A stretch of 64,000 nucleotides of DNA, from contig DVJE01000015.1 of assembly GCA_018716975.1 (NCBI GenBank), positions 1-64,000 of the forward strand, read 5' to 3'. Position 1 is the first letter of the stretch. Each line of letters opens with the position of its first letter. This document shows, piece after piece, positions 12,262-32,704 of this stretch. The position numbers and the translations under genes are program-made. The stretch comes from Candidatus Gallacutalibacter stercoravium (GTDB taxonomy: Bacteria; Bacillota; Clostridia; Oscillospirales; Acutalibacteraceae). Below the pieces are notes generated by a model. It searched no databases and was not told where the DNA came from. It saw nothing but the letters and a program-made list of their open reading frames with translations.

Positions 12262-12299
12262 TTTGTATTGCCGTAGGGAATGAGTCCTCATGCCCAGCT

Positions 12300-15366: not shown

Positions 15367-15397
15367 GCCGCATAGGCTCCTTTCCTGTGATGATGTC

Positions 15398-15494
15398 AGT
15401 ATAAGCCGGCAACCTTGCGCCAACCTTCTAGCTACCTTACATTTACTTTACATTTCAGCGTGCTGCGGCAGGCCTAGGGTTTCTATGCTATAAT
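15398..15494. promoter_or_regulatory. Divergent promoter region with direct repeats
   Basis: Two exact copies of TTACATTT (15437-15444 and 15448-15455) are spaced 11 bp apart, so they lie on one face of the helix. A second pair, CAACCTT (15410-15416 and 15421-15427), has the same 11-bp period. A minus-strand -10 box (TATACT, 15398-15403) for the ABC operon lies just inside these repeats. A TATAAT at 15489-15494 can serve the response-regulator gene. Tandem repeats with this period upstream of a -35 are the usual binding pattern of OmpR-type regulators, so this is the likely site of the regulator at 15515. Confidence 0.5.
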
Positions 15495-17617: not shown

Positions 17618-18088
17618 AGAAAATGCGATTTGTAAATGCCTCCCACCCGCAGAAAAGCTATTGGTGCGCCTAAAGCGTTTTGGGGCGTGTCACCTTCTAT
17701 TGGCCCGAAACTATTTTTAACTATTTGGGCAATAGAAGCTTCGGCTTTCACGCTGACGAATGCCCTCTCGTTTGGAACTTGCGGTTGTGTGCAACGCATC
17801 AAACGGCTTGTAAAACCTTTTGATGCGATATATAATTTAAAAGACGCAGAAAGAAGCAGGCACGCTCGGCGCAAGCTTTCTCATCTGTGTAAAACCCCTA
17901 ACGTGATTGTTTTTATGACGGCCGTGGCGTCTTATTAGACGTGGCGGCCGTTGTGCCGGTGTTTTGAAAAATAGCCGCTTGTTTATTGTTTAGAAATTTA
18001 CTTTGGGTTTGCTTGTGATACCGGCTGATAAGGGGCGCCTGCGCAACCATAGCGCCGTATGATGACAAATGAAGGGTATCGATGAATT
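17618..18088. repeat. Structured intergenic stretch, possible dispersed repeat
   Basis: These 471 nt have no convincing gene. They contain a hairpin of TCTATTGGCCC with GGGCAATAGA (17696-17736), another of GCATCAAA with TTTGATGC (17796-17826), and a third at 17918-17951 (ACGGCCG/CGGCCGT with an inner CGTC/GACG). A 111-codon minus-strand frame (17539-17874) that includes GPIEGDTPQNALGAPIAF resembles translations I remember from intergenic repeats of related genomes. I take the block as a possible dispersed, structured repeat rather than protein-coding. The uvrA-like start follows with only a weak ribosome binding site. Confidence 0.35.
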
Positions 18089-20560
18089 ATGATTGATAAA
18101 ATAAAAATTCGCGGAGCAAAAGTGCACAATTTAAAAAATATAGATGTAGATGTTCCGCTGAATAAAATTGTAGGTATTGCCGGGGTATCGGGTTCTGGAA
18201 AATCTTCGCTGGCTTTAGGCGTTTTGTATGCCGAAGGCTCCCGGCGGTATTTGGACGCGCTTTCCACTTACACCCGGCGGCGGATGACCCAGGCGGCAAA
18301 AGCGCAGGTAGATGAAGCGCTGTATGTGCCGGCCGCTCTGGCACTGCATCAACGTCCGGGGGTACCCGGTATACGCAGCACTTTTGGCACAGGTACAGAG
18401 CTGCTCAACAATCTTCGCTTGATGTTTTCACGGCTTGCCAGCCACCGGTGTCCCAATGGGCACTATCTAGCTCCCACATTGGCAGTGGCTGCGGGGCACG
18501 AACTCACTTGTCCGGAATGCGGCGCAAAATTTTATGCGCCGTCGGCAGAGGAACTTGCCTTTAACAGTCAAGGTGCATGCCGCACCTGTGATGGTACCGG
18601 CGTGGTAAGAACGGTGGACCGCGCAACGCTGGTGCCGGATGAGTCCCTTACCATTGATGAAGGCGCCGTGGCTCCCTGGAATTCCTTAATGTGGTCGCTG
18701 ATGACGGACGTTTGTAGGGAGATGGGCGTGCGCACTGACGTTCCCTTTTGTGATCTTACAGACAAAGAAAAAGATATTGTCTATAACGGCCCGGCGGAAA
18801 AGAAACATATTTTTTACAAACCTAAAAATTCTAACCAGGGCGGAGAGTTGGACTTTACCTATTTTAACGCGGTGTATACTGTGCAGAATGCGTTGGCAAA
18901 GGTCAAAGATGAAAAGGGCATGAAGCGGGTGGAAAAGTTTTTAAAGCAAGAGGCCTGCCCGGATTGCGGTGGCACCCGGCTATCTGAAAGTGCCAGAGCA
19001 CCAAAACTTTGCGGCATTTCGTTAGATGAGGCCTGCCAAATGACCCTTTCGGCGCTGGTGGAGTGGGTGAAAAGGGTGCCGCCGTCGCTTGCGCAAGAAA
19101 TGCGCCCTATGGCCGAAAGTATTTGCGAGTCGTTTCAAACTGCCGCTAAACGGCTTTTAGATTTGGGGCTTGGATATTTGACCCTTGACCGCGCCGGCGC
19201 AACGCTTTCCACCGGTGAACGGCAGAGGATGCAGCTGGCGCGTGCCGTTCGCAATCGCACAACCGGCGTTCTTTATGTGCTGGACGAACCGTCCATTGGA
19301 TTGCATCCGGCTAATATGGTGGGCTTATTGGGCGTAATGCGCGATTTGGTGGCGGACGGCAATTCGGTTGTATTTGTGGATCATGACACCCAAATTTTAG
19401 CACAAGCAGATTGGCTCATCGAAATGGGGCCGGGCGCCGGCGCCCAGGGGGGTAGAATGGTTGCAGAAGGCTTGCCCACGGATTTGGCCCAAAACCCCAA
19501 TTCTAAAATAGGCCCCTTCCTTTCCGGCGCCGCCGCTATACACAGGGAACGTCCTGCCGGTGAGGTGTTTGCCGGTGGAACAATTGCACTTTCTACCGGC
19601 GCCATTCATACGGTGCAGCCGCTGGAGGTCGCGATTCCCAAAGGAAGGCTAACCGTGGTAACGGGCGTATCGGGTTCCGGTAAAACGACCTTAATTTTAG
19701 AAAGCCTTGTGCCCGGGTTGGAGGCCATAACCCACGGAAAAAAGCTGCCGGAACATGTGCGTTCCATTCAAGCCGACGGCATTACGCAGGTGAAGCTGAT
19801 AGACGCTACGCCTATTGGGATCAATGTTCGTTCAACCGTTGCCACTTATGCCAACATACACGACGAATTGCGTAAGGTTTTTGCTAGAACGCCAGACGCC
19901 AAACAACTGGGTTACAAGGCCGGAGACTTTTCTTATAACACCGGTAAGCTGCGCTGCCCTGTTTGCGACGGTACCGGTGTAATTAGTTTGGATGTGCAGT
20001 TTTTACCTGATGTGGAGATTCCATGCCCGGAGTGTAGAGGATCCCGGTATGCAAAAGCGGCTGCTCAAGTGCGGCATCAGGATAAAACCGGCCGTAGTTA
20101 CTCCCTGCCTGACCTAATGGCAATGGACGTGAATACGGCGTTGGATGTTTGTAAGAATTTAAAATTAGTTTATCAACGTTTACAGGTGCTGCAAGGGCTT
20201 GGCCTTGGATACCTAACGCTGGGAGAAGAAACCCCCAGCCTATCCGGCGGCGAAGCACAGCGCTTAAAGTTGGCAAGCGAAATGGGCAAGGCGCAGTCGG
20301 ATTCGGTGTTCGTGTTTGACGAACCGACGATTGGCCTGCATCCGCTGGATGTGCAAACCCTGTTGGGCGTATTTCAAACGCTTATCAAAAACGGCGCTAC
20401 GGTCGTTGTGATCGAGCACGATTTAGATGTTATCCGCAATGCGGACTATGTGATTGATATGGGGCCGGGCGGCGGCACCGAAGGCGGCCGGGTTGTTGCG
20501 GCCGGCACGCCGGCAGAAATTCAAAGTAGTCCGCAAAGCCGCACCGGTAAGTTTCTCTAG
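18089..20560 (+). CDS. UvrA-like excinuclease ABC ATPase (short paralogue)
   Basis: This is an 823-residue protein with the tandem ABC architecture of UvrA, about 120 residues shorter than housekeeping UvrA. ATPase half 1 has GVSGSGKSSL near residue 31 and the signature LSTGERQRMQLARAV. Half 2 has GVSGSGKTTL and LSGGEAQRLKLASEM, followed by VFDEPTIGLHP. Zinc-binding CPECGAKF and Cys-rich CPVCDGTG motifs are present. The shorter class is found in drug-producer self-protection (DrrC-like) and as UvrA2 in many Firmicutes. No uvrB or uvrC is nearby, and the role may be DNA protection against an intercalator. Confidence 0.88.
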   Translation: MIDKIKIRGAKVHNLKNIDVDVPLNKIVGIAGVSGSGKSSLALGVLYAEGSRRYLDALSTYTRRRMTQAAKAQVDEALYVPAALALHQRPGVPGIRSTFGTGTELLNNLRLMFSRLASHRCPNGHYLAPTLAVAAGHELTCPECGAKFYAPSAEELAFNSQGACRTCDGTGVVRTVDRATLVPDESLTIDEGAVAPWNSLMWSLMTDVCREMGVRTDVPFCDLTDKEKDIVYNGPAEKKHIFYKPKNSNQGGELDFTYFNAVYTVQNALAKVKDEKGMKRVEKFLKQEACPDCGGTRLSESARAPKLCGISLDEACQMTLSALVEWVKRVPPSLAQEMRPMAESICESFQTAAKRLLDLGLGYLTLDRAGATLSTGERQRMQLARAVRNRTTGVLYVLDEPSIGLHPANMVGLLGVMRDLVADGNSVVFVDHDTQILAQADWLIEMGPGAGAQGGRMVAEGLPTDLAQNPNSKIGPFLSGAAAIHRERPAGEVFAGGTIALSTGAIHTVQPLEVAIPKGRLTVVTGVSGSGKTTLILESLVPGLEAITHGKKLPEHVRSIQADGITQVKLIDATPIGINVRSTVATYANIHDELRKVFARTPDAKQLGYKAGDFSYNTGKLRCPVCDGTGVISLDVQFLPDVEIPCPECRGSRYAKAAAQVRHQDKTGRSYSLPDLMAMDVNTALDVCKNLKLVYQRLQVLQGLGLGYLTLGEETPSLSGGEAQRLKLASEMGKAQSDSVFVFDEPTIGLHPLDVQTLLGVFQTLIKNGATVVVIEHDLDVIRNADYVIDMGPGGGTEGGRVVAAGTPAEIQSSPQSRTGKFL

Positions 20561-20837
20561 TCCATTGCACAAACTTCGCGATGTAATGGCGCCACAGCGG
20601 GTGAAAGCAAATGGTACTTAAATAGAGCGTAATCGCATTTTGTTATGTAGATATAGAAATAATTGCCGAAAAGCCGCTGTTTGTTGGCTTGTTTACAAAA
20701 GATCATCCATTTTAATTCTGTGTTTTCTAGAACAGTTTCCTAAAATTTTTGGGAAAATAGTATCTTGTGTGAATACACGAAATGCTATATGATTAATGTA
20801 TATGGAATTGTTTAGCTTTTTGGGGGGAGATGGCAAG
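20561..20837 (+). promoter_or_regulatory. Promoter region of the kinase/FHA operon
   Basis: A TTGTGT at 20765-20770 and a TATGAT at 20788-20793 are separated by exactly 17 bp, a good vegetative promoter. Transcription would begin near 20800 and leave a leader of about 38 nt before ATG 20838. A short hairpin (TTTCC/GGAAA with an A/T-rich centre) at about 20736-20756 lies just upstream. No further promoter of this quality was noticed before the end of the operon at 32392. Confidence 0.55.
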
Positions 20838-23495
20838 ATGGATGTGGAAAAACTATGCCCGGGCTGTATGCGTGAGAGGCAAAGCATGGAAGGGCCTTGC
20901 CCGTTTTGCGGGTATGATGCCTCTGCGGCACAGGTAGAAGCGCACCAGCTGCCGCCGGGCACCATCCTGTCGGGCAAATATTTGGTAGGCAAGCTGCTGG
21001 GCGAGGGTGGTTTTGGCATTACATATTTGGGCTGGGATTTAAACCTAGATATGAAGGTAGCCATCAAGGAATATTACCCGGCCGGCTTTGTTATGCGCGA
21101 AAATACCTCTAGCAATACGGTTTTGAGTTTTACGGGGGAAAAGGGCGAGTTTTACCAGGCAGGCAAAGATAAGTTCCTCAGCGAAGCCAAAAGTTTGGCA
21201 AAGTTTTTTCTTTTGCCGGGCATTGTGTGTGTAAAAGACTTTTTCTTGGAAAACAACACAGCTTATATCGTGATGGAATACATAGACGGCGTAACGCTGA
21301 AAACCAAGCTGGCGCAAAGCGGCGGCAAAATGCCTGTTGGGCCTTTGTTGGAGCTGATGCGCCCGCTCATGTCGTCGCTATCCACGGTGCATAAGGCTGG
21401 GCTAATCCACCGGGATATTAGTCCCGACAATATTATGGTGTCGAATGCCGGGCAGGTAAAACTGCTGGATTTTGGCGCCGCGCGCGATGTTACAGTGAAC
21501 GGCGGCAAAAGTTTGGCGGTGGTGCTTAAACCTGGGTATGCGCCAGAAGAGCAGTATCGCACCCAGGGGCAGCAAGGACCGTGGACCGACGTTTACGCCT
21601 TGTGCGCCACTATTTATAAATGCATTACCGGTGTAACTCCGCCGGAGCCGATCGAGCGTATGGCGAACGACAAGCTGGTGCCGCCGATTGCCCTTTGCCC
21701 GGTTACCCCGGCGCAAAATGCAGCGCTGCTGAAGGGGCTGGCAATCTATGCCGCGCAACGGTTCCAAAGCATAGAAGAGTTGTACCGAGCTTTGTATGGC
21801 AGTCCGGTTTCACAAACGCCTCCTCCAACTGGTGCGGCTATGCCTACTGGAGCGGGCGTGAATGGCGGCCAGCAAGTAAACCCGGCGGTTAACCAACAGC
21901 AGGAACAAGAGCGGCAGGCTCGCGAACGGGCGGCGCAGGAAGAAGCGGCGCGCAGGCAGGCGGCTATGGCAGCGGCACAGCAGCAACAAGCAGAAGCAAA
22001 GGCAAAACGCAACCGCATCCTTTTGGTGGCGGGCATAGCGGTGGCCGCTCTTTTGATAATCATATTGCTCGCTTCTCAAAGCTGCGGTTCCAGTGCGGGT
22101 TCCGATTCGTCTTCTTCCAGTTCGCGTGCGGAGACGGTTTCTTCACAGGTGAGCGAGTCTCAACCCGCGGGCTTTTCACAGGGACGGTATCAAGATAACG
22201 ATATCGGTTTCTCGTATTCGGAGGATTGGTTACCGTCCACTGCGCAAAACGGCGGACCGTGCCTGACGGGTATCTTAGGCGGTGTAGAGTACGAATTTAC
22301 TGTGCTGGATATAACCGACGATACCGCCCAGGATATTAACGACTATCTGGCAGATGCCTATGATTATCTAGAAAGCACCTATGGCATTACTCCCGTAGCG
22401 GGCGGCACAGGCTCGTTGAGCAACGGCACGGTGGGCAGCTATTCCGCTAGGGTGACCGGTTGCCTGTATGAAGATGGTGGAGAGGTGTGTTCTCTGAATT
22501 TGTATATCGTCACCGATGGAGCTAAAAGAGTGGCGATTATGACCCGGGCCCCCGGTTTAAGCAGCGACAGCACGCAGTATGACGGCAGTGTATTTGATTC
22601 CATATTCGACTCTTTTGAAATTTACCGCAGCGCAAGCGGTGGCGGCCAAGAGAGCAGCGCGGCTGCTTCCTCTGCCGAGAATGTCGATGCTCTTGCAGAG
22701 ATATTATACGATCAGGCTCAAAGCATGTGGAGCGCCGGCCAAAAGGAAGAGGCTGTTGAATATTTCATGCAGGCAGCTGAAAGCGGATATGCGCCGGCCC
22801 AAAACACAGTCGGCTATCTTTATGAAAAAGGCGATACCTTAGAAAAGGATATGGACGAGGCGCTGTATTGGTATGAAGAAGCCGCCAATCAGGGTTATGC
22901 AATGGCGCAGCACAATCTGGGCGTTCTGTATCGAGAAGGCGACGGCGTTGAGCAGGATTACGAATTATCCTTCGAGTGGTTGACAAAGGCTGCCGAGCAA
23001 GGCTATGCGGATTCTCAAAACGACGTGGGCTACGCCTATCAATACGGCCTAGGCGTGAGCAAAGATTTAGAAAAGGCTTTTGAATGGTACATGAAAGCAG
23101 CTGAGCAAGGGTCTGATATCGGCCAATGTAATGTGGGTATTTGCTACCGCGACGGTATCGGCGTGGAACAAGATTATGACGAGGCATTTCAGTGGCTGTT
23201 AAAGGCCGCCGAGCAAGGATTCGCCTCGGCCCAAAATGATGTGGGCTTTGCCTATCAAAACGGCCAAGGTGTGGAAGAAGACATGGCAGAGGCCTTTGAT
23301 TGGTATATGAAAGCTGCCGAACAGGGATTTAGCGTTGGGCAGTACAATGTGGGCATCTGCTATAAGATGGGCCGTGGTGTAGAGCAAGATTACGAGGAAG
23401 CTCTTGCGTGGTTTAAAAAGGCGGCGGATCAAGGCTATGAGGATGCGCAAAAACAAATTGATAGCTATGAGCAGCTCGGTGGCTGGGATTCCTAA
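20838..23495 (+). CDS. Ser/Thr protein kinase with zinc ribbon, TM helix and Sel1 repeats
   Basis: This 885-residue protein begins with a zinc ribbon (Cys7, Cys10, Cys21, Cys24). A protein kinase domain follows (about 45-325): GEGGFG at 55-60, Lys77 in VAIKE, HRDISPDN with Asp193, DFGAA with Asp211, and YAPEEQY. The usual Lys of HRDxKxxN is Ser. A Gln/Ala/Glu-rich coiled segment leads to one membrane helix (about 394-413). Outside lie a Ser-rich linker, a globular region and about seven Sel1-type repeats with AAEQG signatures. The kinase is thus cytoplasmic and the Sel1 solenoid probably extracellular. GGGGGGAG at 20822-20829 selects ATG 20838 over an earlier in-frame ATG at 20796. First gene of the operon. 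Confidence 0.88.
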   Translation: MDVEKLCPGCMRERQSMEGPCPFCGYDASAAQVEAHQLPPGTILSGKYLVGKLLGEGGFGITYLGWDLNLDMKVAIKEYYPAGFVMRENTSSNTVLSFTGEKGEFYQAGKDKFLSEAKSLAKFFLLPGIVCVKDFFLENNTAYIVMEYIDGVTLKTKLAQSGGKMPVGPLLELMRPLMSSLSTVHKAGLIHRDISPDNIMVSNAGQVKLLDFGAARDVTVNGGKSLAVVLKPGYAPEEQYRTQGQQGPWTDVYALCATIYKCITGVTPPEPIERMANDKLVPPIALCPVTPAQNAALLKGLAIYAAQRFQSIEELYRALYGSPVSQTPPPTGAAMPTGAGVNGGQQVNPAVNQQQEQERQARERAAQEEAARRQAAMAAAQQQQAEAKAKRNRILLVAGIAVAALLIIILLASQSCGSSAGSDSSSSSSRAETVSSQVSESQPAGFSQGRYQDNDIGFSYSEDWLPSTAQNGGPCLTGILGGVEYEFTVLDITDDTAQDINDYLADAYDYLESTYGITPVAGGTGSLSNGTVGSYSARVTGCLYEDGGEVCSLNLYIVTDGAKRVAIMTRAPGLSSDSTQYDGSVFDSIFDSFEIYRSASGGGQESSAAASSAENVDALAEILYDQAQSMWSAGQKEEAVEYFMQAAESGYAPAQNTVGYLYEKGDTLEKDMDEALYWYEEAANQGYAMAQHNLGVLYREGDGVEQDYELSFEWLTKAAEQGYADSQNDVGYAYQYGLGVSKDLEKAFEWYMKAAEQGSDIGQCNVGICYRDGIGVEQDYDEAFQWLLKAAEQGFASAQNDVGFAYQNGQGVEEDMAEAFDWYMKAAEQGFSVGQYNVGICYKMGRGVEQDYEEALAWFKKAADQGYEDAQKQIDSYEQLGGWDS

Positions 23496-23552
23496 TTTTA
23501 CAAGTTCAATTTTTACATATTCAAAAATTATATTTGACGGAGGTTTATCATT

Positions 23553-24167
23553 ATGGAAATGAAACGTTGCCCCAACGGTCATTATTACGATCACTCGAAA
23601 AACCCCACTTGCCCTTATTGCAGCGGCGCCAGCGCCAACGCAAATGTAACTTTGCCCTTGGATAACGGCAGAACGGTGGCACAAAATGTGGCTCCTGGTA
23701 CGGTAGGCCCTACTGTGCCGGTTAGTCCCGTTCCTCAGGCAACCCCAACGGCTCCCGTTTATTCGCCGGCGCCCGCCTCTAATTCCGATGGAGAGCGGAC
23801 GGTTGCGGTTATTCGCCAAAAGATCGGGATAGATCCGGTTGTTGGATGGCTTGTTTGTATCGAGGGTAAGGATAAAGGCACCGATTACCGTATTCATTCC
23901 GACAACAATTATATTGGCCGCGGGGAAAAGATGGATATTTGCATCCACGGTGACGATACCATTTCGCGGGAGAATCACGCGATTGTTAGCTATGATATGC
24001 GGGATAAAATTTTCTACTTTTCGCCCGGCGACGGCCGCAGCATTGTGCGCCTCAACGGCAAGGCGCTGTTTATGACTGCAGAGTTGGCTCCTTATGATCG
24101 AATTGAACTCGGAGGGACCGTGCTGATGTTTATTCCCTTCTGTGGGAAGGAGTTTGATTGGGAGTGA
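23553..24167 (+). CDS. Zinc-ribbon FHA domain protein
   Basis: This 204-residue soluble protein starts with a Cys/His metal-binding segment (CPNGHYYDHSKNPTCPYC). A Thr/Pro-rich linker (about 35-85) contains several Thr residues that could be kinase targets. A C-terminal FHA domain carries the phosphothreonine-binding residues in IGRGEKMDI and TISRENHAIVSYD. In mycobacterial and corynebacterial analogues (GarA/OdhI) a small FHA protein phosphorylated by the neighbouring kinase acts as a molecular switch; that is an analogy here. It lies 57 nt after the kinase and overlaps the start of the phosphatase gene. Confidence 0.85.
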   Translation: MEMKRCPNGHYYDHSKNPTCPYCSGASANANVTLPLDNGRTVAQNVAPGTVGPTVPVSPVPQATPTAPVYSPAPASNSDGERTVAVIRQKIGIDPVVGWLVCIEGKDKGTDYRIHSDNNYIGRGEKMDICIHGDDTISRENHAIVSYDMRDKIFYFSPGDGRSIVRLNGKALFMTAELAPYDRIELGGTVLMFIPFCGKEFDWE

Positions 24168-25366
24168 GTCGCAAGAGGAGGGGCTATACTTTTTTTCTGC
24201 TGCTGCTGTGCCTGTCGCTGTTGACGGCCTGCTCTAGCTTTACACAGGGCGCTGAGGAACCGGCAGTAGTACATGAGGAGGTCAGTTCTGCATCTTCTTC
24301 TCTGGATTCCGAGGAAGAATCAGGACCGCTTTCCTCCTTTGAAGCGGAATCTTCCCAATCCGTTGGAGAAGGGCAAAATTCGGCGCCGAGCGGCATCGTA
24401 TCGCAAACAGAGCAAGAAGGCGGCTTTTCTTTTGCCCAGCTGCTTTGGCCCGCTGTGGCGGTGGTAGTTGTTTTGATAATTGTGGCTGTGTGCCTAATTG
24501 TGCATAAAAAGAAACATACGGTGCCGCCTGTGTCGGTAGAGCAACCTCAAGAGCAGGGGCCTGCTGGTGTTGCGGTAGAAAATGTTGTGCAAGCGCAGGC
24601 ACCCGGCGTTTTTTCACTGGCTATTGGTAATGCACACCATATCGGTAAACGCAGCAGCCAGCAAGATTGTTTTGCTGTTTCAGATGTGACAAATCCGGCG
24701 CTCTGCGCACAAAAAGGAGTGCTAGCGGTGGTGGCGGATGGAATGGGCGGTTTGTCCAATGGAGCGCAGGTGAGCGCTCTTGTCACATCTACAATGATGG
24801 GGTATTTTGATACCCATACCATGCGCGACGCTCCTGCCACCCAGTTACTCACCATGATCAATGAAGCCAACCGGCAGGTACTGCGCGGTTTGGGCAATGC
24901 GCAAGGGCAAAGCGGTTCCACCGTGGTGGCGGTATTAATTCAAGACGGAGGGCTGTACTTTGCTTCGGTGGGAGATAGCCGCATTTATCTATTGCGCGGC
25001 GGCGTGCTTATGCAGATTAACCGGGAGCATACTTATGCAGCCGAACTGGATGAGAAAGTGGCGCGAGGCGAAATTTCGCAAAAAGCTGCCCAGGAGGATC
25101 CGCAGCGCAACGCCTTAACCAGCTATATCGGTATGGGCGCTTTAGAAAAAGTCGATCACAGTTTAAATCCTCTGGCATTGCAGCAAGGGGATCGCATTTT
25201 GTTAATGAGCGATGGCGTATTCGGCACCCTTTCCTCTCAGGAAATTGCGTCCGCAGCCCAAAATGGAGATGCTTTTGAGGCGGCTCAAAGACTGGAACAA
25301 GCCGTGCTGGCAAAGGACAAACCGGGCCAGGATAATTTTACGGCGGTTATTTTGCAGTGTGTTTAA
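24164..25366 (+). CDS. Membrane-anchored PP2C-type protein phosphatase
   Basis: This protein of about 400 residues has an unusual N-terminus: a signal peptide with a lipobox (LLTAC), a short extracellular Ser/Glu-rich segment, then a membrane helix (WPAVAVVVVLIIVAVCLIV) and basic residues. It ends in a cytoplasmic PP2C domain. Metal-binding motifs are SQQDCFAVSD, VADGMGG, SVGDSRIYLL, LMSDGVFG and the final DNFTAV. It should remove phosphate from the operon's kinase targets. Two starts are possible: TTG 24158 (5 nt from AAGGAG) and GTG 24164, which overlaps the previous stop; I chose the latter. Lipidation plus a TM helix would tether both ends of the extracellular loop. Confidence 0.85.
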   Translation: MSRKRRGYTFFLLLLCLSLLTACSSFTQGAEEPAVVHEEVSSASSSLDSEEESGPLSSFEAESSQSVGEGQNSAPSGIVSQTEQEGGFSFAQLLWPAVAVVVVLIIVAVCLIVHKKKHTVPPVSVEQPQEQGPAGVAVENVVQAQAPGVFSLAIGNAHHIGKRSSQQDCFAVSDVTNPALCAQKGVLAVVADGMGGLSNGAQVSALVTSTMMGYFDTHTMRDAPATQLLTMINEANRQVLRGLGNAQGQSGSTVVAVLIQDGGLYFASVGDSRIYLLRGGVLMQINREHTYAAELDEKVARGEISQKAAQEDPQRNALTSYIGMGALEKVDHSLNPLALQQGDRILLMSDGVFGTLSSQEIASAAQNGDAFEAAQRLEQAVLAKDKPGQDNFTAVILQCV

Positions 25367-25402
25367 CAGTAGAGTATTGTGAGATGAGGAAGGGATGAAG
25401 CG

Positions 25403-26818
25403 ATGAAAAAGCGTTTGGCGGCGCTGTTGCTGGCTTTTGGGGTAGTTTGGTGCTTGGGCGGCGCCTCAATGGTGCGGTCTCACGCGGATGCAGGCGCAGT
25501 AGATGAGGCGCGTTACGGCGTAGTGCGGGTGGTATGTGATAAAGAGCCGGGGCAAAGCGTGAGTACAGGCACCGGCTTTGTGGTGGCTCAGGGCACCGAT
25601 AGTACTTTGTTGGTAACCAATATGCATGTGGTGCAAGATGCCCCCGATGCAATTTACATACCGCTGGACTACTGGGACTGGGGTCGCGGCGGCGGTACAA
25701 AAGTTGCCGCTGAGGTTATTGCCCCCTATGAAGATATCGACCTGGTGTTTTTGGAAACACAAGGGCCCTTAGAAGGTTATGAACCGTTGCCCTTGTTGGC
25801 ATCGGAAGAAGTTACCGTAGGCGAAACCGTGTATGCGTTGGGCTATCCCGGCGCGGCGGATTCCATTTTGGATGACGGCAACAACTTGCCTTCTACCATT
25901 GATGATATATCGGTGACGAAGGGGATTATTAGCAAGCAAAACGCCACCATTAATACGGCCGAAGCGTTTCAGACGGATGCCACTATCAACCACGGAAATT
26001 CCGGCGGCCCGCTCATTAACGACGTGGGCAGCGTGGTGGGGATTAACACCTGGGGAACCGAACCGGGCACCAATTTTGCCATCCACGTAGATTATATAAT
26101 TGATGTTTTGGAACAAAGCGATATTCCCTATGTGCAGGGAACGGCCGCCGATGGATCGTCTTCTTCTCAACCGGCGTCCCAGCCGGATGAGGAACCAGCG
26201 GGTGAATCTTCCGCTATGCCTGAAGAATCACCGGCTTCTGATGGAGAAGAACCGACTGAGCCTGTTTTAGGGCCTGTAACGTCACAGCCTGCTGAGGATC
26301 AACCGGAACAGCCGCAGACAGAAGAGCAGAACTCAAACCGCAATATCCTTATCGGAGCTTTAGCCGCTGTTATCGTGGTGATAGCTGTGGTGCTGATTGT
26401 GGTGTTGCGTAAGAAGAAAACACCGGCTCCTGTTAATGCGGCTCCGGCTCCGGCGGCGCCTCCTGCTCCCGCGCCCGCACCGGTGCCTCAGGTAGCGGCT
26501 CCGGCGGCCAGCAGCGTGAAGTTGGTGGGCGTTTCCGGCCAGTTTGCCGGGGTGGAAATTTCGGTTGCGAATGTGTTGGTAATTGGGCGTGATCCGGCGC
26601 GTTGTAGTGTGGTTTTTGCCAAAGATGCGCCCGGCGTCAGCTCGGTGCATTGTGAAGTGCGCGCCAGTGAGGGCGGCATATTGCTTACAGATAAAGGGTC
26701 AAGTTACGGCACCTACGCTTCCACCGGCGGCAAACTAACGCCGCAGCAGCCTGTTTTTGTGGCTCGTGGCGGCTGGTTCTACTTAGGCGCAGAGAGTAAC
26801 CGCTTTACGGTACAATAG
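25403..26818 (+). CDS. Secreted HtrA-like serine protease with TM helix and cytoplasmic FHA domain
   Basis: This is a 471-residue fusion. A signal peptide (1-29) is followed by a trypsin-like protease domain (about 35-245) with His75 in VTNMHVV, Asp113 in YEDIDLVFLE and Ser200 in HGNSGGPL. No PDZ domain follows. An extracellular Ser/Pro/Glu linker (250-310) leads to a membrane helix (about 314-335), a cytoplasmic Ala/Pro linker and an FHA domain (about 375-471) with VIGRDPARCS and VSSVHCEV. The protease thus faces outside while its FHA domain can read phosphothreonines inside, a transmembrane link between the kinase network and extracytoplasmic proteolysis. The spacing to its neighbours is 36 and 15 nt. 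Confidence 0.87.
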   Translation: MKKRLAALLLAFGVVWCLGGASMVRSHADAGAVDEARYGVVRVVCDKEPGQSVSTGTGFVVAQGTDSTLLVTNMHVVQDAPDAIYIPLDYWDWGRGGGTKVAAEVIAPYEDIDLVFLETQGPLEGYEPLPLLASEEVTVGETVYALGYPGAADSILDDGNNLPSTIDDISVTKGIISKQNATINTAEAFQTDATINHGNSGGPLINDVGSVVGINTWGTEPGTNFAIHVDYIIDVLEQSDIPYVQGTAADGSSSSQPASQPDEEPAGESSAMPEESPASDGEEPTEPVLGPVTSQPAEDQPEQPQTEEQNSNRNILIGALAAVIVVIAVVLIVVLRKKKTPAPVNAAPAPAAPPAPAPAPVPQVAAPAASSVKLVGVSGQFAGVEISVANVLVIGRDPARCSVVFAKDAPGVSSVHCEVRASEGGILLTDKGSSYGTYASTGGKLTPQQPVFVARGGWFYLGAESNRFTVQ

Positions 26819-26833
26819 GAAGGGGAGGACCGT

Positions 26834-28183
26834 ATGGGCAGCCGATACAATGGGAATACCGAGTTCTTTCAAAAGGCGGCGCGTTCTACGCTGCATTTTG
26901 GCGATATTTTTTCCGGCGTTTTTAAAAAACACACCAAAGCCGATTGGGAAAAATTGTTTTTAGCAGGAACAGCTAGCTCTACTCCTCCAGAGAGTGAGAT
27001 GCTAGCCCAATGGAGTAAACCGTGGCTTTTTGCCCGGGTGGCGCTGGTGGGAATTATCCTATCGGTTTTATTTTACGCTATGTCTTTTACAATGCGTGCC
27101 AGCGCTGCTTTTGTGTTGGTAGGTTCCTTTTGCTTACCGCTTGCCATCTTGTTCTTTTATTGGGAAATGAACATTCCCAGAAACGTGCCGATGTATGAGG
27201 TGCTGCTCATGTTTTTGTTGGGCGGTGTGCTTTCTTTAGGGGCAACGTGGCTGTTGTTGCTGTTGGGGTTAATGGACGGCAATACGCCGGCTTGTTGGGC
27301 GGCCTTTTTAGAAGAACCGGCTAAACTGCTGGCGGTAGCGGTTTTTTTGTACAAACCGGGTAAAAAATACATATTAACCGGGGTTCTGGTCGGTGGGGCC
27401 GTAGGCGCCGGATTTGCTGCCATGGAGTCGGCCGGTTACGCGGTGGATATTATGAACGAGGTGGCGTCAATTGCAGGCGTTGACGCCCAAGGCAGGGCTT
27501 TGCAGCTGCAATACGCCTTAGATTTGGTGCTGCTGCGCGGCATTCTTTCGCCAGGCGGCCATGTGGTATGGGCAGCCCTTTACGGGGGTACGTTGGCTTG
27601 GGCCAAAAACGGAGAAAAATTGCAGCCTCGCCATTTTACCGACTGGCGTTTTCTCGCTTCTTTTGGGTCGGCGGTTGCCTTGCATTTTTTATGGAACTAC
27701 GGCATTTCAATTGTGCCGATCCCTGTGGTGGGGGATCTTTCTTATGTTTTGCTGACGGTTGCGGCTTGGGTGATACTATTTTTCATCATCCGGCAGGGGG
27801 TACGCCAGGTGCTGATTGTTTCCTGCGGCGCGCCTCAGCCCGCTTATGCCGGGCAACCGGTGGGTGCCAGCGCCCCTATGCTGATGGGCGTTAAGGGATA
27901 TTATGCCGGGCAACAAATCCCGCTTTCGTCGGGCGCTGTGGTGTTGGGGCGCGATCCGCAACATTGCAATCTGATGTTTCCCAGGGAAGTGCCGGGCGTC
28001 AGCCGGCAGCATTGCCGGTTGGAATTCAGCAACGGTGCTTTATGGTTAAGCGATCTGGGGTCAACCTGCGGCACTTTTTTGGACGATGGCCGTCGGCTTC
28101 CTCCTAGCACGCCGGTCCGGCTTCAGTCGGGGCAGCGTTTTTACTTGGGGGATCGCAACGTTTTATTTGAGGTTAGGCAATAG
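26834..28183 (+). CDS. PrsW-family intramembrane metalloprotease with C-terminal FHA domain
   Basis: This is a 449-residue fusion. About eight membrane helices (60-325) carry the PrsW catalytic motifs: Glu160-Glu161 in FLEEPAKL, Glu198 in AAMESAGYA, His243 in GGHVVWAA and His284 in ALHFLWNYG. A cytoplasmic linker then leads to an FHA domain (about 350-449) with VLGRDPQHCN and VSRQHCRLEF. PrsW proteins cut anti-sigma factors or other membrane substrates at site 1. Attachment to a phosphothreonine reader suggests substrate recruitment or gating by the operon's kinases. I know of no characterised protein with this architecture. Confidence 0.85.
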   Translation: MGSRYNGNTEFFQKAARSTLHFGDIFSGVFKKHTKADWEKLFLAGTASSTPPESEMLAQWSKPWLFARVALVGIILSVLFYAMSFTMRASAAFVLVGSFCLPLAILFFYWEMNIPRNVPMYEVLLMFLLGGVLSLGATWLLLLLGLMDGNTPACWAAFLEEPAKLLAVAVFLYKPGKKYILTGVLVGGAVGAGFAAMESAGYAVDIMNEVASIAGVDAQGRALQLQYALDLVLLRGILSPGGHVVWAALYGGTLAWAKNGEKLQPRHFTDWRFLASFGSAVALHFLWNYGISIVPIPVVGDLSYVLLTVAAWVILFFIIRQGVRQVLIVSCGAPQPAYAGQPVGASAPMLMGVKGYYAGQQIPLSSGAVVLGRDPQHCNLMFPREVPGVSRQHCRLEFSNGALWLSDLGSTCGTFLDDGRRLPPSTPVRLQSGQRFYLGDRNVLFEVRQ

Positions 28184-28195
28184 GAGAGAAATCAG

Positions 28196-30046
28196 ATGGA
28201 CTTTGATAGGCTATGCCTTCGGTGTATGCGCGAGGGAGTGGATCCGCAGGCGGGCAGCTGTTCTCTTTGCGGCGCGCCGGTAGGCTTTAAACAAGATCCG
28301 CCCTTCGCTTTGCCGCCTGGCACGGTGTTGCACGGGCAGTATATCACCGGAGCAGCATTGGGTTGCGGTGGGTTTGGAATTACCTATATCGCTGTAGATC
28401 TGCGCCAGGAGCATCGTGTGGCCATAAAGGAGTTTATGCCCAGCGGGCTGTGCACCCGGCGGCCGGGGGAAACCGCCGTGCTGCTGCAAACCGGAGCGGA
28501 AGACTTTCGCTACGGAAAGGAGCAATTCCTACAAGAGGCGCGCACCATTTATGAATGCCGGGGTAATGCCGACATCATAGAGGTAGAAAAGCTTTTTGAA
28601 GAAAACGGAACCGCCTATTATGTGATGGAGTTTTTAGAAGGGGAGGATCTGCGCAAGTACCTCAACCGGCGGGGCGGTAAGCTTGCTTTTAATGAAGCGC
28701 TGAATCTGTTGCAGCCGGTTTTTCGGGCGTTGGAACGGGTGCATAGCCGGGGGATTGTCCATCGTGATGTGAGCCCAGATAATATTTTTATCTGCACAAA
28801 CGGCAAGGTAAAATTGCTGGATTTTGGCGCTGCCCGGGCAGCCCTAGGTGAGCGGAGCCAAAGCATAGATGTTATTCTCAAGCGGGGCTATGCGCCGGTG
28901 GAGCAGTACAGTTCGCATGGCAATTTGGGCCCCTGGACCGATGTGTATGCCTTGGCGTGCACCTTATATCATTGCTTGACCGGCCGGGTGCCGCCAGAAA
29001 GCATGGAGCGTATGCAAAAAGATTCTTGCTTTCCTTTGGCGCAATACAGTTTTAATGTGCCGATAGAAGCAGAACGAGTGTTGCAAAGGGCGATGGCGCC
29101 GCGCGCAGAATTTCGGTATCGCACCGTGGGTGAGTTTCGCGCCGAATTATATGCCACTACGCAGCAGCCTGGGGCGCCGCGTGTAGTTCAGGGCAACACG
29201 CAAGAGCCAACCCCCCAACAGGTGGTGAGCAGTTCTTCTGTTTCACAGCCGTCTGCTGCCAATGTATTGGGCAGGCGTGTTGGTGCTTATCTTTTGGATT
29301 CTTTGATTGTCGGCCTTCTTTCGGCCGCAGTTTTGCTGCTGATAGGCAAATATTTGTACATAGGCCTTTGGTTTGTTATCATTTTTTTGCTTTGCGTGCT
29401 ATATGGTTACGGTATGGAAAGCACCAGTAGCCATGCCACTTTGGGAAAACGCGCCGTGGGCCTCTCGGTGCAGGAACAAAACGGTGAAAGCCTTCAGCCG
29501 GGCGCGGCGCTGCTGCGCAATGTAATAAAATATTTGCCGATATTGGCCGGCTGCATTCCCAATACTTTTATTTGGCTGGGCGGGGCGCTTACCTTAGCGG
29601 ATGCGTTGTTTGCCCTGGGGGACACGGGATATACGCTGCATGATCGGGCGGCAAATTCGGCGGTGAGGCTGCCTGCCGTTTTCGCTGCGGAGATGGTGCC
29701 GGTGCAAATACCGCCGCAAGCGCGGGGCCGGCGCGGGGTGCTGTGTATCTCTGGTTTGTTTACTGGGAACTTTTTCCCGTTGGATGGCGGCAAATTGATT
29801 TTGGGCCGAGATACCGAAGCATGTAATGTGATTTTTCCAAGTGGAGCGGCAGGAATCAGCGCGCGGCACTGTGAGCTACTGTGGGATGCCAGCGCCAATA
29901 CGGCGGTGTTGCGTGATTTGGGTTCCACTTATGGCACGTTTGTGGCCGGCGGCCGCTTGGCGCCGCAGCAGTTGGTGATGTTGCGGCCGGGCGATAGTTT
30001 TACGATAGGAGAGAAAAATGTCTTCCTTGTAAAGAATGAAGCATGA
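28196..30046 (+). CDS. Ser/Thr protein kinase with zinc ribbon, RDD membrane domain and FHA domain
   Basis: This 616-residue protein has an N-terminal zinc ribbon (Cys7, Cys10, Cys22, Cys25) very like that of the first kinase (both contain CMRE). Kinase domain: loop GCGGFG near 56-61, Lys78, HRDVSPDN with Asp191, DFGAAR with Asp209, and YAPVEQYSS. A Gln/Ser-rich linker leads to an RDD domain (about 355-485) with membrane helices and the ALGDTGYTLHDRAA motif, then a C-terminal FHA domain (about 515-616) with ILGRDTEACNV and ISARHCEL. As in kinase 1, Ser replaces the catalytic-loop Lys. It should be able to dock on phosphorylated partners through its own FHA domain. Confidence 0.87.
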   Translation: MDFDRLCLRCMREGVDPQAGSCSLCGAPVGFKQDPPFALPPGTVLHGQYITGAALGCGGFGITYIAVDLRQEHRVAIKEFMPSGLCTRRPGETAVLLQTGAEDFRYGKEQFLQEARTIYECRGNADIIEVEKLFEENGTAYYVMEFLEGEDLRKYLNRRGGKLAFNEALNLLQPVFRALERVHSRGIVHRDVSPDNIFICTNGKVKLLDFGAARAALGERSQSIDVILKRGYAPVEQYSSHGNLGPWTDVYALACTLYHCLTGRVPPESMERMQKDSCFPLAQYSFNVPIEAERVLQRAMAPRAEFRYRTVGEFRAELYATTQQPGAPRVVQGNTQEPTPQQVVSSSSVSQPSAANVLGRRVGAYLLDSLIVGLLSAAVLLLIGKYLYIGLWFVIIFLLCVLYGYGMESTSSHATLGKRAVGLSVQEQNGESLQPGAALLRNVIKYLPILAGCIPNTFIWLGGALTLADALFALGDTGYTLHDRAANSAVRLPAVFAAEMVPVQIPPQARGRRGVLCISGLFTGNFFPLDGGKLILGRDTEACNVIFPSGAAGISARHCELLWDASANTAVLRDLGSTYGTFVAGGRLAPQQLVMLRPGDSFTIGEKNVFLVKNEA

Positions 30047-30063
30047 GGCTAGGAGAGGATGGT

Positions 30064-30780
30064 ATGCCTTTTATTTCAGCGCAGGTTTCGTTGCCGGGCG
30101 CGCGCTCGTGTAACGAGGATACGGTATTTTCTGATGAAGAGGGCGGTTTCTTCTTAGCCGCTGTTGCCGATGGGCTGGGGGGCCACGGTGGTGGAAGCAT
30201 TGCCTCTAGCACGGCGGTGGAAACGGTTGCCAGCGGTTTTTTTGCCGGCCCTAGCTTGGAGCCTGCCGCCCTTAACCAACTTTTTGTAAGTGCAAATAAT
30301 CAGGTGTACGGCCTGCAAAGCGCGCAAACACAGATGAAAACCACCTTAGCCGCCCTGTTTTCACAAGAAAAAAATGTAGTGATAGCGCATGTGGGCGATT
30401 CCCGGGTGTATTGGTTTCGCGGCGGCGCTATTATATTCCAAACCTGCGATCACAGCGTGCCGCAGATGGAGGTTTTGTCGGGCGCGATACGGCCGGAACA
30501 AATCAGGCATCACGCAGATCGGGCCCGCTTGCTGCGTGCTTTAGGGAGAGAAAACCCGCCTAAGCCGGAATTTCATGTTGGCACTTTACAAGATGGCGAT
30601 GTGTTTTTGTTGTGCTCCGACGGTTTTTGGGAGCCGGTGTGGGAAGGGGAGATGCTAATCGATCTATCAAAATCCCGCACGCCTCAAGAATGGCTCTCTT
30701 TTATGACGGCCCGTATCGGCGCGCAGATGACCAAGGAGCAGGATAATTTTTCGGCGGTTGCCTTATTCTACCGCGCGTAA
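30064..30780 (+). CDS. Soluble PP2C-type protein phosphatase
   Basis: This is a 238-residue cytoplasmic PP2C without membrane anchors. Metal-binding motifs are ARSCNEDTVFSD, AVADGLGGHGGG, HVGDSRVYWF, LLCSDGFWE and the final DNFSAVALF. An upstream ATG at 30043 overlaps the kinase stop, but AGGAGAGG at 30051-30058 fits ATG 30064. Having one tethered and one free phosphatase in the same operon suggests separate membrane and cytosolic substrate pools. It is 16 nt from the VWA gene. Confidence 0.87.
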   Translation: MPFISAQVSLPGARSCNEDTVFSDEEGGFFLAAVADGLGGHGGGSIASSTAVETVASGFFAGPSLEPAALNQLFVSANNQVYGLQSAQTQMKTTLAALFSQEKNVVIAHVGDSRVYWFRGGAIIFQTCDHSVPQMEVLSGAIRPEQIRHHADRARLLRALGRENPPKPEFHVGTLQDGDVFLLCSDGFWEPVWEGEMLIDLSKSRTPQEWLSFMTARIGAQMTKEQDNFSAVALFYRA

Positions 30781-30796
30781 AAGGGGAGTGGGAAAA

Positions 30797-32392
30797 ATGC
30801 TACGTTGGCTTAAGAGGGGAATCGCCCTAACGGCGGCGCTAACCTTGCTTTGCTGTACATCAGTTACATCTTTCGCGCAGGATCCGTTAACACTGTATAC
30901 GACACAGGCTCGCTTTGAAGACGGTAATCTTTCCGTGCTGTGCCGTTCTAATTTGGAAGATCCTACGCCGGAGGCCTTTACCGGCATGCTGGGAACAATT
31001 GATTTGCAGCCGGAGGAGGTGCGCCCGTACCAAGAAAGCGGGCTGGGCACCACTTGTTTGTTTTTGGCGGATGTTTCCGGCTCTATTAGCGAGCAAGATA
31101 TCACCACAATTCGAGAGATCGCCTTGCAGATTAACAGCGGCTTATCGGCAGAAGACAACGGCGCCGTTATGACCGTTGGGAATGAAGCCTATGGCAATCC
31201 GATTACCGACGATCCGGCGCAAAGAGAGCAACAGATTGCCGCCATCAGCGGTGTAGGGGAGGATACAAACCTTTATGCTTCTATGATTGAAGCATTAGAT
31301 TTGCTTACCACTTCGCAGGATGCTAATTTTCAAAAGTGCCTGGTGGTGCTTAGCGACGGGGAGGATGATTACACCACTGGTGTCACACGGGAAGAGGTAG
31401 AAAAGAAAATAGACGAAACCGGGATTCCTGTTTATACGGTGGCTATCGTGCGGGATTCGTATGATACCCAGAAGGTGGAAGCCGCCAAAGTTTTAGGCAG
31501 CTTTGCCAGGTTATCACCCGGTGGGCTAGATATAACTTTTGGCTTGGATGGTACCACTCCCCAAGAGGCGGGCCAGCAAATAGCGCAGGCCATGCAAGGT
31601 TCTTTCTTTGTGGATTTTTCTGTTCCGGCTTCTCCGGTTTTGGATCAAATGGCTCAACTCAAAGTAACAGTAGAGGATGCGGATCAAAAAGCGGAAGCAA
31701 GTTTTCGTTTTGACACTACTCAAGTAAGGCAGTGGCAACAGCAGCAAGAGGAATCCCAAGAAAGTGCAGTTTCACAAGATCCGGCTTCATCAGAAGATGC
31801 GGTTTCCTCTGAACCGGCTTCCGTCGGCGCGGTAGAAGAGGCGAACGATGCGCCTGGTTGGCTGCTATATGTTTGGATTGGCGCCGGGGCTGTTGTGGTT
31901 GTTGCCGCTGTTGTAATCATTTTACTGATTCGCAAGAAAAACAAAACACCGCCCGTTTTGCCGGTGGAAGAAGAAAGTGTGCCGGAGATGCCGGTACCGC
32001 CTACCGATTGGCAAGCAGACGCCCCGCAGACTACCATACCGGAAGCGGCGCCTCCCGTCGTTGTACCGGAGCCTCTTGAGGCGGTGGTACATATCAGTCT
32101 AACCCGGGTGGGTGTGCCGGAACGTGAGGTCTATGAATTGGATATGCCCGACTCTTTGATTATTGGCCGTTCTCCAGAACAGGCGGCGTTGGCTTTTGCG
32201 CAGGATATGCGCCTTTCTAGCCGTCACTGCAAGTTCACCTATGAAAACGGCGGGTTATACGTAGAGGATTTGGGTTCTACCAATGGCACCTATATCAACG
32301 GTATTCCGGTAACTGGTAAGCGGGGGCTCAATAAAGGAGATATTATTCTCATTGGGTCTATGGAGTTGCGCGTGGATTGGCAGGCTTTATAA
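30797..32392 (+). CDS. VWA-domain surface protein with TM helix and cytoplasmic FHA domain
   Basis: This is a 531-residue single-pass protein. A signal peptide (1-27) precedes an extracellular region with a von Willebrand A domain (about 85-270) holding the metal-ion adhesion site motif in LADVSGSISE (Asp92, Ser94, Ser96). An acidic Ser/Glu linker, a membrane helix (about 355-378) and a cytoplasmic Pro-rich linker follow. A typical FHA domain (about 430-531) ends the protein, with IIGRSPEQA, LSSRHCKF and GSTNGTYING. It may sense a surface ligand or partner and report through its FHA domain. Last gene of the operon; no clear hairpin terminator follows. Confidence 0.87.
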   Translation: MLRWLKRGIALTAALTLLCCTSVTSFAQDPLTLYTTQARFEDGNLSVLCRSNLEDPTPEAFTGMLGTIDLQPEEVRPYQESGLGTTCLFLADVSGSISEQDITTIREIALQINSGLSAEDNGAVMTVGNEAYGNPITDDPAQREQQIAAISGVGEDTNLYASMIEALDLLTTSQDANFQKCLVVLSDGEDDYTTGVTREEVEKKIDETGIPVYTVAIVRDSYDTQKVEAAKVLGSFARLSPGGLDITFGLDGTTPQEAGQQIAQAMQGSFFVDFSVPASPVLDQMAQLKVTVEDADQKAEASFRFDTTQVRQWQQQQEESQESAVSQDPASSEDAVSSEPASVGAVEEANDAPGWLLYVWIGAGAVVVVAAVVIILLIRKKNKTPPVLPVEEESVPEMPVPPTDWQADAPQTTIPEAAPPVVVPEPLEAVVHISLTRVGVPEREVYELDMPDSLIIGRSPEQAALAFAQDMRLSSRHCKFTYENGGLYVEDLGSTNGTYINGIPVTGKRGLNKGDIILIGSMELRVDWQAL

Positions 32393-32704
32393 CAGCCTTT
32401 TTATCTTCTTTTCGTCTTGAGAAATTACTACACTTCGTTCGCTTTCTTATCCTTCTTTATTCCTCTTTCCCAAAAAGTTCTAAGAATAGTACATGAAAAT
32501 TCTAAAAATAGTGCCTAAAAAGAAATAAAAGCTATTTACAAAAAAACATATGTGTTATAGACTGAATGAAGTTAACAGGATTTCCCTTTTATAACATCGA
32601 TGATTCTTTCCAGTACGGCTGAAAAAACGGAAATCTTCGAAACAGCCTGTCTTTACAGGCAGCAATCTGTCAAGAAAATAGAATGAGAAAGGCAGTGTGA
32701 AATC
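32393..32704 (+). promoter_or_regulatory. Intergenic region with paired repeats and possible promoter
   Basis: Two near-identical 15-mers (TTCTAARAATAGTRC) lie at 32478-32492 and 32500-32514. Their 22-bp period is two helical turns, which suggests an operator for a dimeric regulator. Downstream, TTTACA (32535-32540) and TAGACT (32558-32563) are 17 bp apart and could form a promoter for the glycosidase-like gene. A small hairpin GCCTG/CAGGC lies near 32645-32660. No gene is visible in the 312 nt. Confidence 0.35.

Follow-up and report, generated by a model that had tools for sequence, protein, structure and literature searches.

The window analysed here, 64,000 nucleotides of a contig of Candidatus Gallacutalibacter stercoravium, contains eight adjacent genes, called A to H below, which bring together Ser/Thr kinases, PP2C phosphatases, proteases and FHA domains, and the small FHA protein B is likely the centre of the circuit that they form. 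All eight open reading frames were confirmed on the + strand at 20796-32392, with intergenic gaps from A to H, as called, of 57, -10, 36, 15, 12, -4 and -23 nucleotides, the last of which changes to about +16 with the ATG at 30797 as the start of H. An earlier interpretation, made from the letters of this DNA and referred to below as the sequence-only reading, had described eight genes at most 57 nucleotides apart, and the range found, -23 to 57, agrees with it. Domain calls are Pfam matches over cut-off, and topology was taken from the order of domains and a simple hydropathy scan.

20796..23495, + strand: A, zinc-ribbon-like N-terminus and Ser/Thr kinase, transmembrane segment, six Sel1 repeats (Pkinase and six Sel1, Pfam)
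23553..24167, + strand: B, zinc-ribbon-like N-terminus (C6, H10, C20, C23), disordered linker with threonine motifs, FHA; proposed phospho-hub (by pattern and model)
24158..25366, + strand: C, signal- or lipobox-like N-terminus (by inspection), transmembrane segment, cytosolic PP2C (PP2C, Pfam)
25403..26818, + strand: D, signal, outside trypsin-like protease, transmembrane segment, inside FHA (Trypsin_2 and FHA, Pfam)
26834..28183, + strand: E, PrsW intramembrane metalloprotease, inside FHA (PrsW and FHA, Pfam)
28196..30046, + strand: F, zinc-ribbon-like N-terminus and Ser/Thr kinase, RDD membrane domain, FHA (Pkinase, RDD and FHA, Pfam)
30043..30780, + strand: G, cytosolic PP2C, alternative start 30064 (PP2C, Pfam)
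30758..32392, + strand: H, signal, outside VWA with DxSxS, transmembrane segment, inside FHA; likely start 30797 (VWA and FHA, Pfam)

Pfam bears out the composition named by the sequence-only reading, i.e. two kinases (A, F), two PP2Cs (C, G), a protease-FHA, a PrsW-FHA and a VWA-FHA protein, and the free FHA protein B is recovered by its model. FHA domains are found in B, D, E, F and H, five of the eight products, and all but B and G, six in total, are membrane-bound or exported; both counts agree with the sequence-only reading. According to the topology scan, B is cytosolic. In Pfam, B matches Yop-YscD_cpl only, under cut-off (30.5 vs 33.2 bits), and its FHA fold is seen in the structure model. 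The Sel1 region of A probably faces the outside. D had been called an HtrA-like protease-FHA; its trypsin-like and FHA parts hold, the trypsin-like domain being itself confirmed as a member of its family and carrying both the His motif and the GNSGG motif by pattern, but HtrA/Do membership does not (87.5 vs a cut-off of 416.2 bits for the subfamily model, no PDZ in Pfam). E belongs to the PrsW family (PF13367; 75.8 bits, cut-off 23.5), with four motifs found by pattern. The sequence-only reading had mentioned neither the zinc-ribbon-like Cys pairs with which A, B and F begin nor the RDD domain that F carries. Pfam found no AAA domain among the eight proteins.

Threonine motifs and the FHA domain of protein B

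The sequence-only reading had left out B as a likely circuit centre with conserved threonine motifs. Two of these threonines are placed as follows:

23649..23651, + strand: codon of Thr33 of B (T in 44 of 48 aligned B proteins)
23799..23801, + strand: codon of Thr83 of B, in ERTVAVI (T in 47 of 48 aligned B proteins)

A third one, T66, is threonine in 38 of the 46 aligned proteins without a gap there, and all three stand in a linker in whose columns the commonest residue averages 0.25 (gap-majority columns scored zero). The alignment comprises the B of the window and 47 of 80 named B proteins, picked for length and spread after the linkers had been viewed; the search pattern that retrieved the relatives lies beyond T83, which is not part of it. 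The FHA residues R123 (48/48), S138 (48/48) and N168 (47/48) are kept as well, and from knowledge of the FHA family we take them to be the positions contacting phosphothreonine. GR, SxxH and NG are the positions named as such in PMC1262709.

Over 81 B linkers (81 of the 83 non-duplicate B proteins, from named and unnamed loci together), T[VIM][AGP] occurs 165 times against 22.5 expected (standard deviation 4.5, maximum 35 in 200 shuffles), and a terminal threonine motif stands directly before the FHA domain in 72 of them. A longer form of the motif is found in the B class 171 times against 11.3 expected (standard deviation 3.7, 80 proteins), whereas kinases have no excess of it (49 vs 62.1), and PP2Cs (14 vs 11.1 and 21 vs 17.9) and trypsin-FHA proteins (36 vs 29.3, standard deviation 5.5) have little or none. 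The FHA-only class, with 34 vs 4.6, includes unseparated B proteins of unnamed loci and of the window. Duplicates were left out of these class counts and of the catalytic-motif counts given further below (L056, equal to L074, and L057, equal to L137; loci are numbered with L throughout).

AlphaFold2 gives B a confident ribbon and FHA domain, with a predicted local distance difference test score (pLDDT) of 94-98 in the FHA core and 51-58 in the linker. Compared by Foldseek with solved structures, this model finds GarA or OdhI at ranks 1, 2 and 4-11 (E 1.1e-7 to 3.6e-7), and the closest folds include, too, the FHA domain of DgcB, whose structure was determined together with a phosphorylated N-terminal peptide. 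B does have the FHA fold of the OdhI/GarA family, and HMMER matches GarA/OdhI to it at E 1.8e-4 to 7.3e-3; FHA domains of other families score close behind, so the fold alone does not define membership, and no NCBIfam model, that of OdhI included, matched B. With OdhI/GarA, which work with PknG/PknB in Actinomycetota and are further marked by closing on themselves when phosphorylated and by binding 2-oxoglutarate/glutamate enzymes, B shares the small size and cytosolic location, an N-terminal threonine motif and the order of motif then FHA; it differs in having several motifs of the TVAV/TVGV type and no ETTS, in its extra zinc ribbon, and in its gene neighbours, which are membrane FHA modules.

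PknG first recruits its FHA substrate through autophosphorylated threonines, after which the ETTS motif of that substrate is phosphorylated (PMC8546545), and by analogy with this recruitment B may be phosphorylated by the kinases of its locus. The same precedent would also suit an arrangement in which FHA tags only cluster membrane proteins on autophosphorylated kinases, B being a passive or structural adaptor with threonine motifs that act unphosphorylated, and one locus, L016, with kinase, PP2C and PrsW-FHA and no B in the 20 kb seen, would fit it too. Against that, it is B that has the motif excess and the kinases have none, and each of the three FHA residues is retained in 47 or 48 of the 48 aligned B proteins; we regard such a purely structural role as unlikely and prefer to see B as a kinase substrate.

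Co-conservation and exchange of parts

Searched with the B alignment, a collection of 84,980 species gave 436 stretches matching one pattern, 418 of which encode B relatives, and the locus counts rest on the best 80 of these 418. By title, the 80 comprise 52 Bacillota (two titled only 'bacterium'), 19 proteobacteria (15 beta/gamma, 4 delta-type), 5 Synergistota, 2 Acidobacteriota, 1 Bdellovibrionales and 1 Rhodothermia-like member, about six phylum-level groups overall, and include Priestia abyssalis DSM 25875, Heliobacterium chlorum DSM 3682 and Thiohalocapsa marina DSM 19078; that of Priestia abyssalis (L109) is a compact locus of five genes. In the 49 flank-complete loci, those with at least 6 kb on either side of B, a kinase is present within the fetched stretch in 49, PP2C in 48 (two or more in 41), trypsin-FHA in 25, VWA-FHA in 27, PrsW-FHA in 5, and any of these three in 47. 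The conserved unit is a kinase, a PP2C, a zinc-ribbon FHA protein and at least one FHA-tagged membrane module, found in several phyla, and the window has all four.

Co-conservation, on which the sequence-only reading depended, is real for these parts and fails for the exact eight-gene set, which was seen only in the window. Trypsin-FHA and VWA-FHA occur as a pair in 7 of the 49 flank-complete loci, none of the 49 has trypsin-, PrsW- and VWA-FHA together, and among the fetched loci with a labelled B all three were found only in the window, which is therefore the fullest set seen.

The association was also approached from the other parts. In 321 same-class genomes, that of the window included, full-length unsplit trypsin-FHA proteins (profile positions <=56 to >=430 of 432), searched independently of B, have a B match no more than 5 kb away in 13 of 13 cases (13 of the 321 genomes), and full-length VWA-FHA proteins (positions <=16 to >=514 of 521), searched in the same way, in 8 of 9; the B profile itself matches 25 of the 321. 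These are lower bounds, since the best 10 (B), 4 (VWA-FHA) and 5 (trypsin-FHA) first-look candidates were scored per genome. Together with an order-wide scan, where B was found in 34 of 394 genomes and 28 of 169 genera, the independent single-part scans indicate that the genes form a real but patchy unit; at genus level the genome of the window was the only one there. With E alone as query, a contig search matched 20 stretches and confirmed no relative among them. A family scan with E matched 10 of 200 genomes, 7 of them through FHA only, and an order scan with a PrsW alignment matched 33 of 394, 8 of them in the PrsW part. The loci found through E number 27, of which 19 have a membrane FHA protein and PP2C, with B recognised by pattern in 14 of the 19; in L057, L066, L067 and L070 it is present by profile, not by pattern.

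The nearest relative, L075 (titled Murimonas intestini DSM 26524, flagged UNVERIFIED_CONTAM), has seven counterparts, A to G, in the same order and with 37-57% identity, two extra kinases and one extra trypsin-FHA, and is without VWA-FHA; the match to A covers its kinase head alone (residues 14-423), so that the two do not have the Sel1 part in common. Counterparts of A, B, C, D, E and G are found in L074 (UBA1320), the match to D being confined to the FHA end. In L082 the position of H is taken by a transmembrane-FHA protein with 41% identity to the end of H, and L093 has PrsW-FHA together with VWA-FHA. A tree built from the FHA portion of B places the window with L074, L075 and L101 (support 0.70).

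Across the loci, FHA is fused to trypsin-like, VWA, PrsW and RDD partners, most of them with their motifs in place: all PrsW motifs are found by pattern in 8 of 9 PrsW-FHA proteins, the ninth (L151) being PrsW by Pfam, DxSxS in 43 of 43 VWA-FHA proteins, and the His and Ser motifs in 50 of 58 trypsin-FHA proteins. The kinases are no less varied. A census of 67 of them (A of the window and one from each of 66 loci) gives, among the first 25 of 47 families, PASTA in 7/67, FGE-sulfatase in 6/67, Sel1, TPR, Ank and Lectin_C in 5/67 each, and DUF5050 and LRR in 3/67 each. The PASTA cases could suggest an expanded housekeeping PASTA kinase/PrpC pathway for cell-wall control, and so could NCBIfam, where the two kinases score highest with the model of the PASTA kinase family (163.9 and 144.1 bits, cut-off 450). 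However, a kinase with three PASTA domains is encoded elsewhere in the genome of the window, on contig C11, and A carries Sel1 and F RDD-FHA, with PASTA in neither by Pfam; an origin of this kind seems to us quite improbable next to a dedicated phosphothreonine module.

A number of other arrangements were observed beside these. M48 (HtpX-like) peptidase-FHA proteins are encoded at L100:8014-9189 (Pfam) and L106:7489-8682 (HExxH pattern), in loci titled Syntrophobacterales and Deltaproteobacteria. Membrane proteins with two FHA domains at L114:12136-14457, L086:17733-20024 and L119:7528-9885, the sole one scanned (L114) being an ABC transporter by Pfam, recall mycobacterial Rv1747. A MotA/ExbB-type protein (by Pfam, in L116 only) and a small protein with one transmembrane segment and an NIFN..LD motif recur in proteobacterial and acidobacterial loci of the module (L116:9156-9962 and 14674-15450; also L149, L142). 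In the operon of L074 (equal to L056), closely related to that of the window, the trypsin-like-FHA protein encoded at 11417-12727 has neither of the catalytic motifs, His or Ser, and is likely a pseudo-protease. At L016:12445-14643 a TIR-like protein with repeats and a transmembrane segment (read by eye) directly follows PrsW-FHA and transmembrane-FHA genes. In L089, at 17415-20599, genes for a transmembrane-FHA and an FHA-FtsK/SpoIIIE (EssC-like) protein lie two genes past a same-strand run of kinase, B, PP2C and VWA-FHA, and a link to type VII secretion in some Lachnospiraceae is possible there. An FHA-transmembrane protein of 645-663 amino acids stands just upstream of B at L076:8006-9943 and likewise in L077, L083, L087 and L090, four of the five being titled Lachnospiraceae, and may be a further kind of output module. 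A custom PrsW model that had drifted took these five for PrsW-FHA; most or all of the motifs are absent, they were excluded from the PrsW counts, and the L076 protein, the only one scanned, has no Pfam family besides FHA, PrsW included.

A proposed phosphothreonine relay across the membrane

From our analysis it would be logical to suggest a phosphothreonine signalling module working across the membrane, with B as the main local kinase substrate and FHA-tagged membrane proteins as outputs, a proposal that we see as evenly balanced between right and wrong. Transmembrane kinases, which have one common head and interchangeable further domains (Sel1 in A), would alter their activity in response to a cue, which the sequence-only reading supposed to come from outside through VWA or Sel1 domains. 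Their main local substrate would be B, whose linker carries conserved T-[VIM]-[AGP]-hydrophobic motifs. Phosphorylated B might then be read by its own FHA domain, giving a closed molecule as in OdhI/GarA, or by the inner-face FHA domains of D, E, F and H, and these four proteins, whose domain order is clear and whose FHA domains are intact with conserved residues, would be gathered or released at the membrane; alternatively, the kinases themselves, and not phosphorylated B, may be what the membrane-module FHA domains read. The fusion partner of FHA would set the output, here a trypsin-like protease and VWA outside, PrsW in the membrane, and RDD, elsewhere an M48 peptidase, an ABC transporter and others, and the membrane and cytosolic PP2Cs would reset the system. 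If control runs in this direction, a surface signal would assemble or gate membrane proteases. A coupling of phosphorylation to membrane and exported proteases, as the sequence-only reading had it, is the most economical interpretation of parts that are real and co-conserved, and overall that earlier interpretation is partly supported.

More tentatively, with confidence short of even, we suggest a type of bacterial transmembrane signalling that is widespread and has as yet no name: a zinc-ribbon FHA hub marked with phosphothreonine would switch intramembrane and exported proteases (PrsW, trypsin-like, M48) and adhesive VWA domains on or off, and inputs and outputs would be interchangeable. If true, it would be a kinase-gated counterpart of regulated intramembrane proteolysis.

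Several points weigh against the relay. Nine of the 81 B linkers are without the terminal motif by pattern, some of them being near variants, and VWA-FHA proteins also have an about twofold motif excess (42 vs 20.7, standard deviation 5.2). The best PDB match of B in HMMER is the FHA domain of CT664 (3gqs, E 1e-4), just before GarA (1.8e-4), and in HMMER alignments the TVAV motif of B and the ETTS region of GarA do not coincide, so the likeness is one of layout and not of demonstrated homology. By pattern, the catalytic His and Ser motifs are incomplete in eight of the 58 trypsin-FHA proteins, one or both being absent, so that proteolysis may not be the output everywhere. A split trypsin-FHA (G810:C9) and the VWA-FHA of genome G606 have no B match nearby, and L016, described above, dispenses with B in the stretch seen. 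Phosphorylation, binding, cleavage and the protease substrates are, moreover, links that we infer.

One could also regard the locus as the regulatory arm of a secretion system, its kinase, PP2C, vWA and FHA proteins controlling a type VII (T7SSc-T7SSj) or type VI apparatus. The threonine phosphorylation pathway of type VI secretion, PpkA-PppA-Fha, has a membrane kinase, a PP2C and an FHA reader, like the window; the TagH/Fha model stays far under its cut-off in the eight proteins (31.3 for E and 35.8 for H vs 120.25 bits). T7SSc-T7SSj clusters of Bacillota often carry kinase, PPM phosphatase, vWA and FHA proteins, a grouping common to the window, and every new subtype contains TsxC/EssC and a WXG100 protein (PMC11217815). 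One of the 80 B loci, L089, does have an FHA-FtsK/SpoIIIE protein within the same gene run, but its FtsK part, used as query, matched only L089 itself among 109 loci scanned. In the genome of the window neither hallmark was found, the best EssC/TsxC match being under cut-off (119.5 of 778.4 bits, positions 465-661 only) and WXG100 giving no match at E 0.001, and the module also occurs on contigs titled proteobacteria, Synergistaceae and Acidobacteria. For this genome a secretion arm is already disfavoured, and we consider it very unlikely as compared with a relay of its own.

A place in conflict or defence, with infection-sensing kinases and FHA-tagged proteases as effectors, is suggested by the PADLOC kinase models Mad6 and PD-T4-6, which match both kinases, by the TIR-like neighbour in L016, and by KKP, a kinase-kinase-PP2C set with an FHA kinase that can be antiphage (PMC11341870). 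The PADLOC matches, however, come without a cut-off and many kinase models match alike; the curated equivalog for the MADS kinase MAD6 is far from reached by A and F (113.3 and 136.2 vs 460 bits), and the protease of D and the VWA of H are predicted to face outwards. KKP and the window have in common two kinases, one of them FHA-bearing, and PP2C; KKP has a cold-shock-domain kinase, PfkA, whereas Pfam finds no cold-shock domain (CSD) in A or F, and the window adds membrane FHA modules. Little credence can be given, in our opinion, to a defence role, and signalling through B remains our preferred interpretation.

The clustering of FHA, kinase and phosphatase genes is long known (PMC1262709). 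ArnA-ArnB of Sulfolobus, with the kinases ArnC/ArnD, also joins a zinc finger-FHA protein to a vWA partner under phosphorylation control (PMC6509490). Its zinc finger, however, has four Cys and belongs to the RanBP2 type, phosphorylation sites are known on ArnB, PP2A is named as the phosphatase, archaellum genes are controlled, and no protease partner is seen in the available text. VMAP ternary systems likewise combine vWA and trypsin, but they are centred on MoxR and vWA (PMC7159879). A publication of 2012 already pointed out PrsW-FHA and PrsW-Zn-ribbon fusions and took them to be likely 'signaling peptidases' (PMC3482391); E is exactly the PrsW-FHA fusion, L016 and L075 have Zn-ribbon-PrsW-FHA, and that paper, as far as its available part goes, gives the domain fusion only, without operon, hub or further FHA proteases. 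The sequence-only reading had presented the system as a candidate undescribed one, which may stand for the module and does not for this fusion: no publication describing the gene set was found in the open-licence literature, whose partial texts make such an absence weak. New here are the near-invariant linker threonines of B in T-[VIM]-[AGP] motifs, ahead of an FHA domain with GarA/OdhI as its nearest solved folds; the module, present in several phyla, appears to be unstudied.

The stimuli of bacterial Ser/Thr kinases are an outstanding question (PMC6069109), the sensed cue and the direct target being often unknown, and one conserved neighbourhood here offers both ends, since it supplies swappable kinase inputs, a candidate substrate with named threonines, readers and the enzymes that would be controlled. 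As all these lie together and some members are in culture collections, the whole phospho-relay is directly testable and, if true, would connect proteolysis, both at the membrane and within it, with Ser/Thr phosphorylation.

Transcription signals and neighbouring genes

Two signals were located at the ends of the gene run:

20765..20793, + strand: promoter-like TTGTGT-17-TATGAT, named in the sequence-only reading (string located; weak, unproven)
32382..32398, + strand: terminator-like stem and T run at the end of H (small, weak)

The promoter-like string matches 8 of 12 consensus positions by manual count, below the threshold of 9/12 of the promoter scan, and is not among the 20 sites listed there (11.2 expected by chance, standard deviation 3.8). 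If used, it would be too near the ATG at 20796, so the true start of A would probably be 20838, preceded by GGGGGGAG. The stem at 32382-32398 is one of 23 terminator-like sites found by scan, against 15.9 expected.

Downstream of the operon, a protein of 776 amino acids (window 32705-35035) has no Pfam or NCBIfam match at E 0.001. Upstream lies a UvrA-like protein of 823 amino acids (window 18089-20560), under both UvrA cut-offs (735.5 vs 1147 and 718.5 vs 729.8 bits) and, by its sequence, probably a UvrA paralogue. The sole further FHA match in the same genome is on contig C49 (L024, G000:C49, 6740-9881), where the FHA protein is of the FtsW/RodA type and adjoins a penicillin-binding-type protein (names read by eye).

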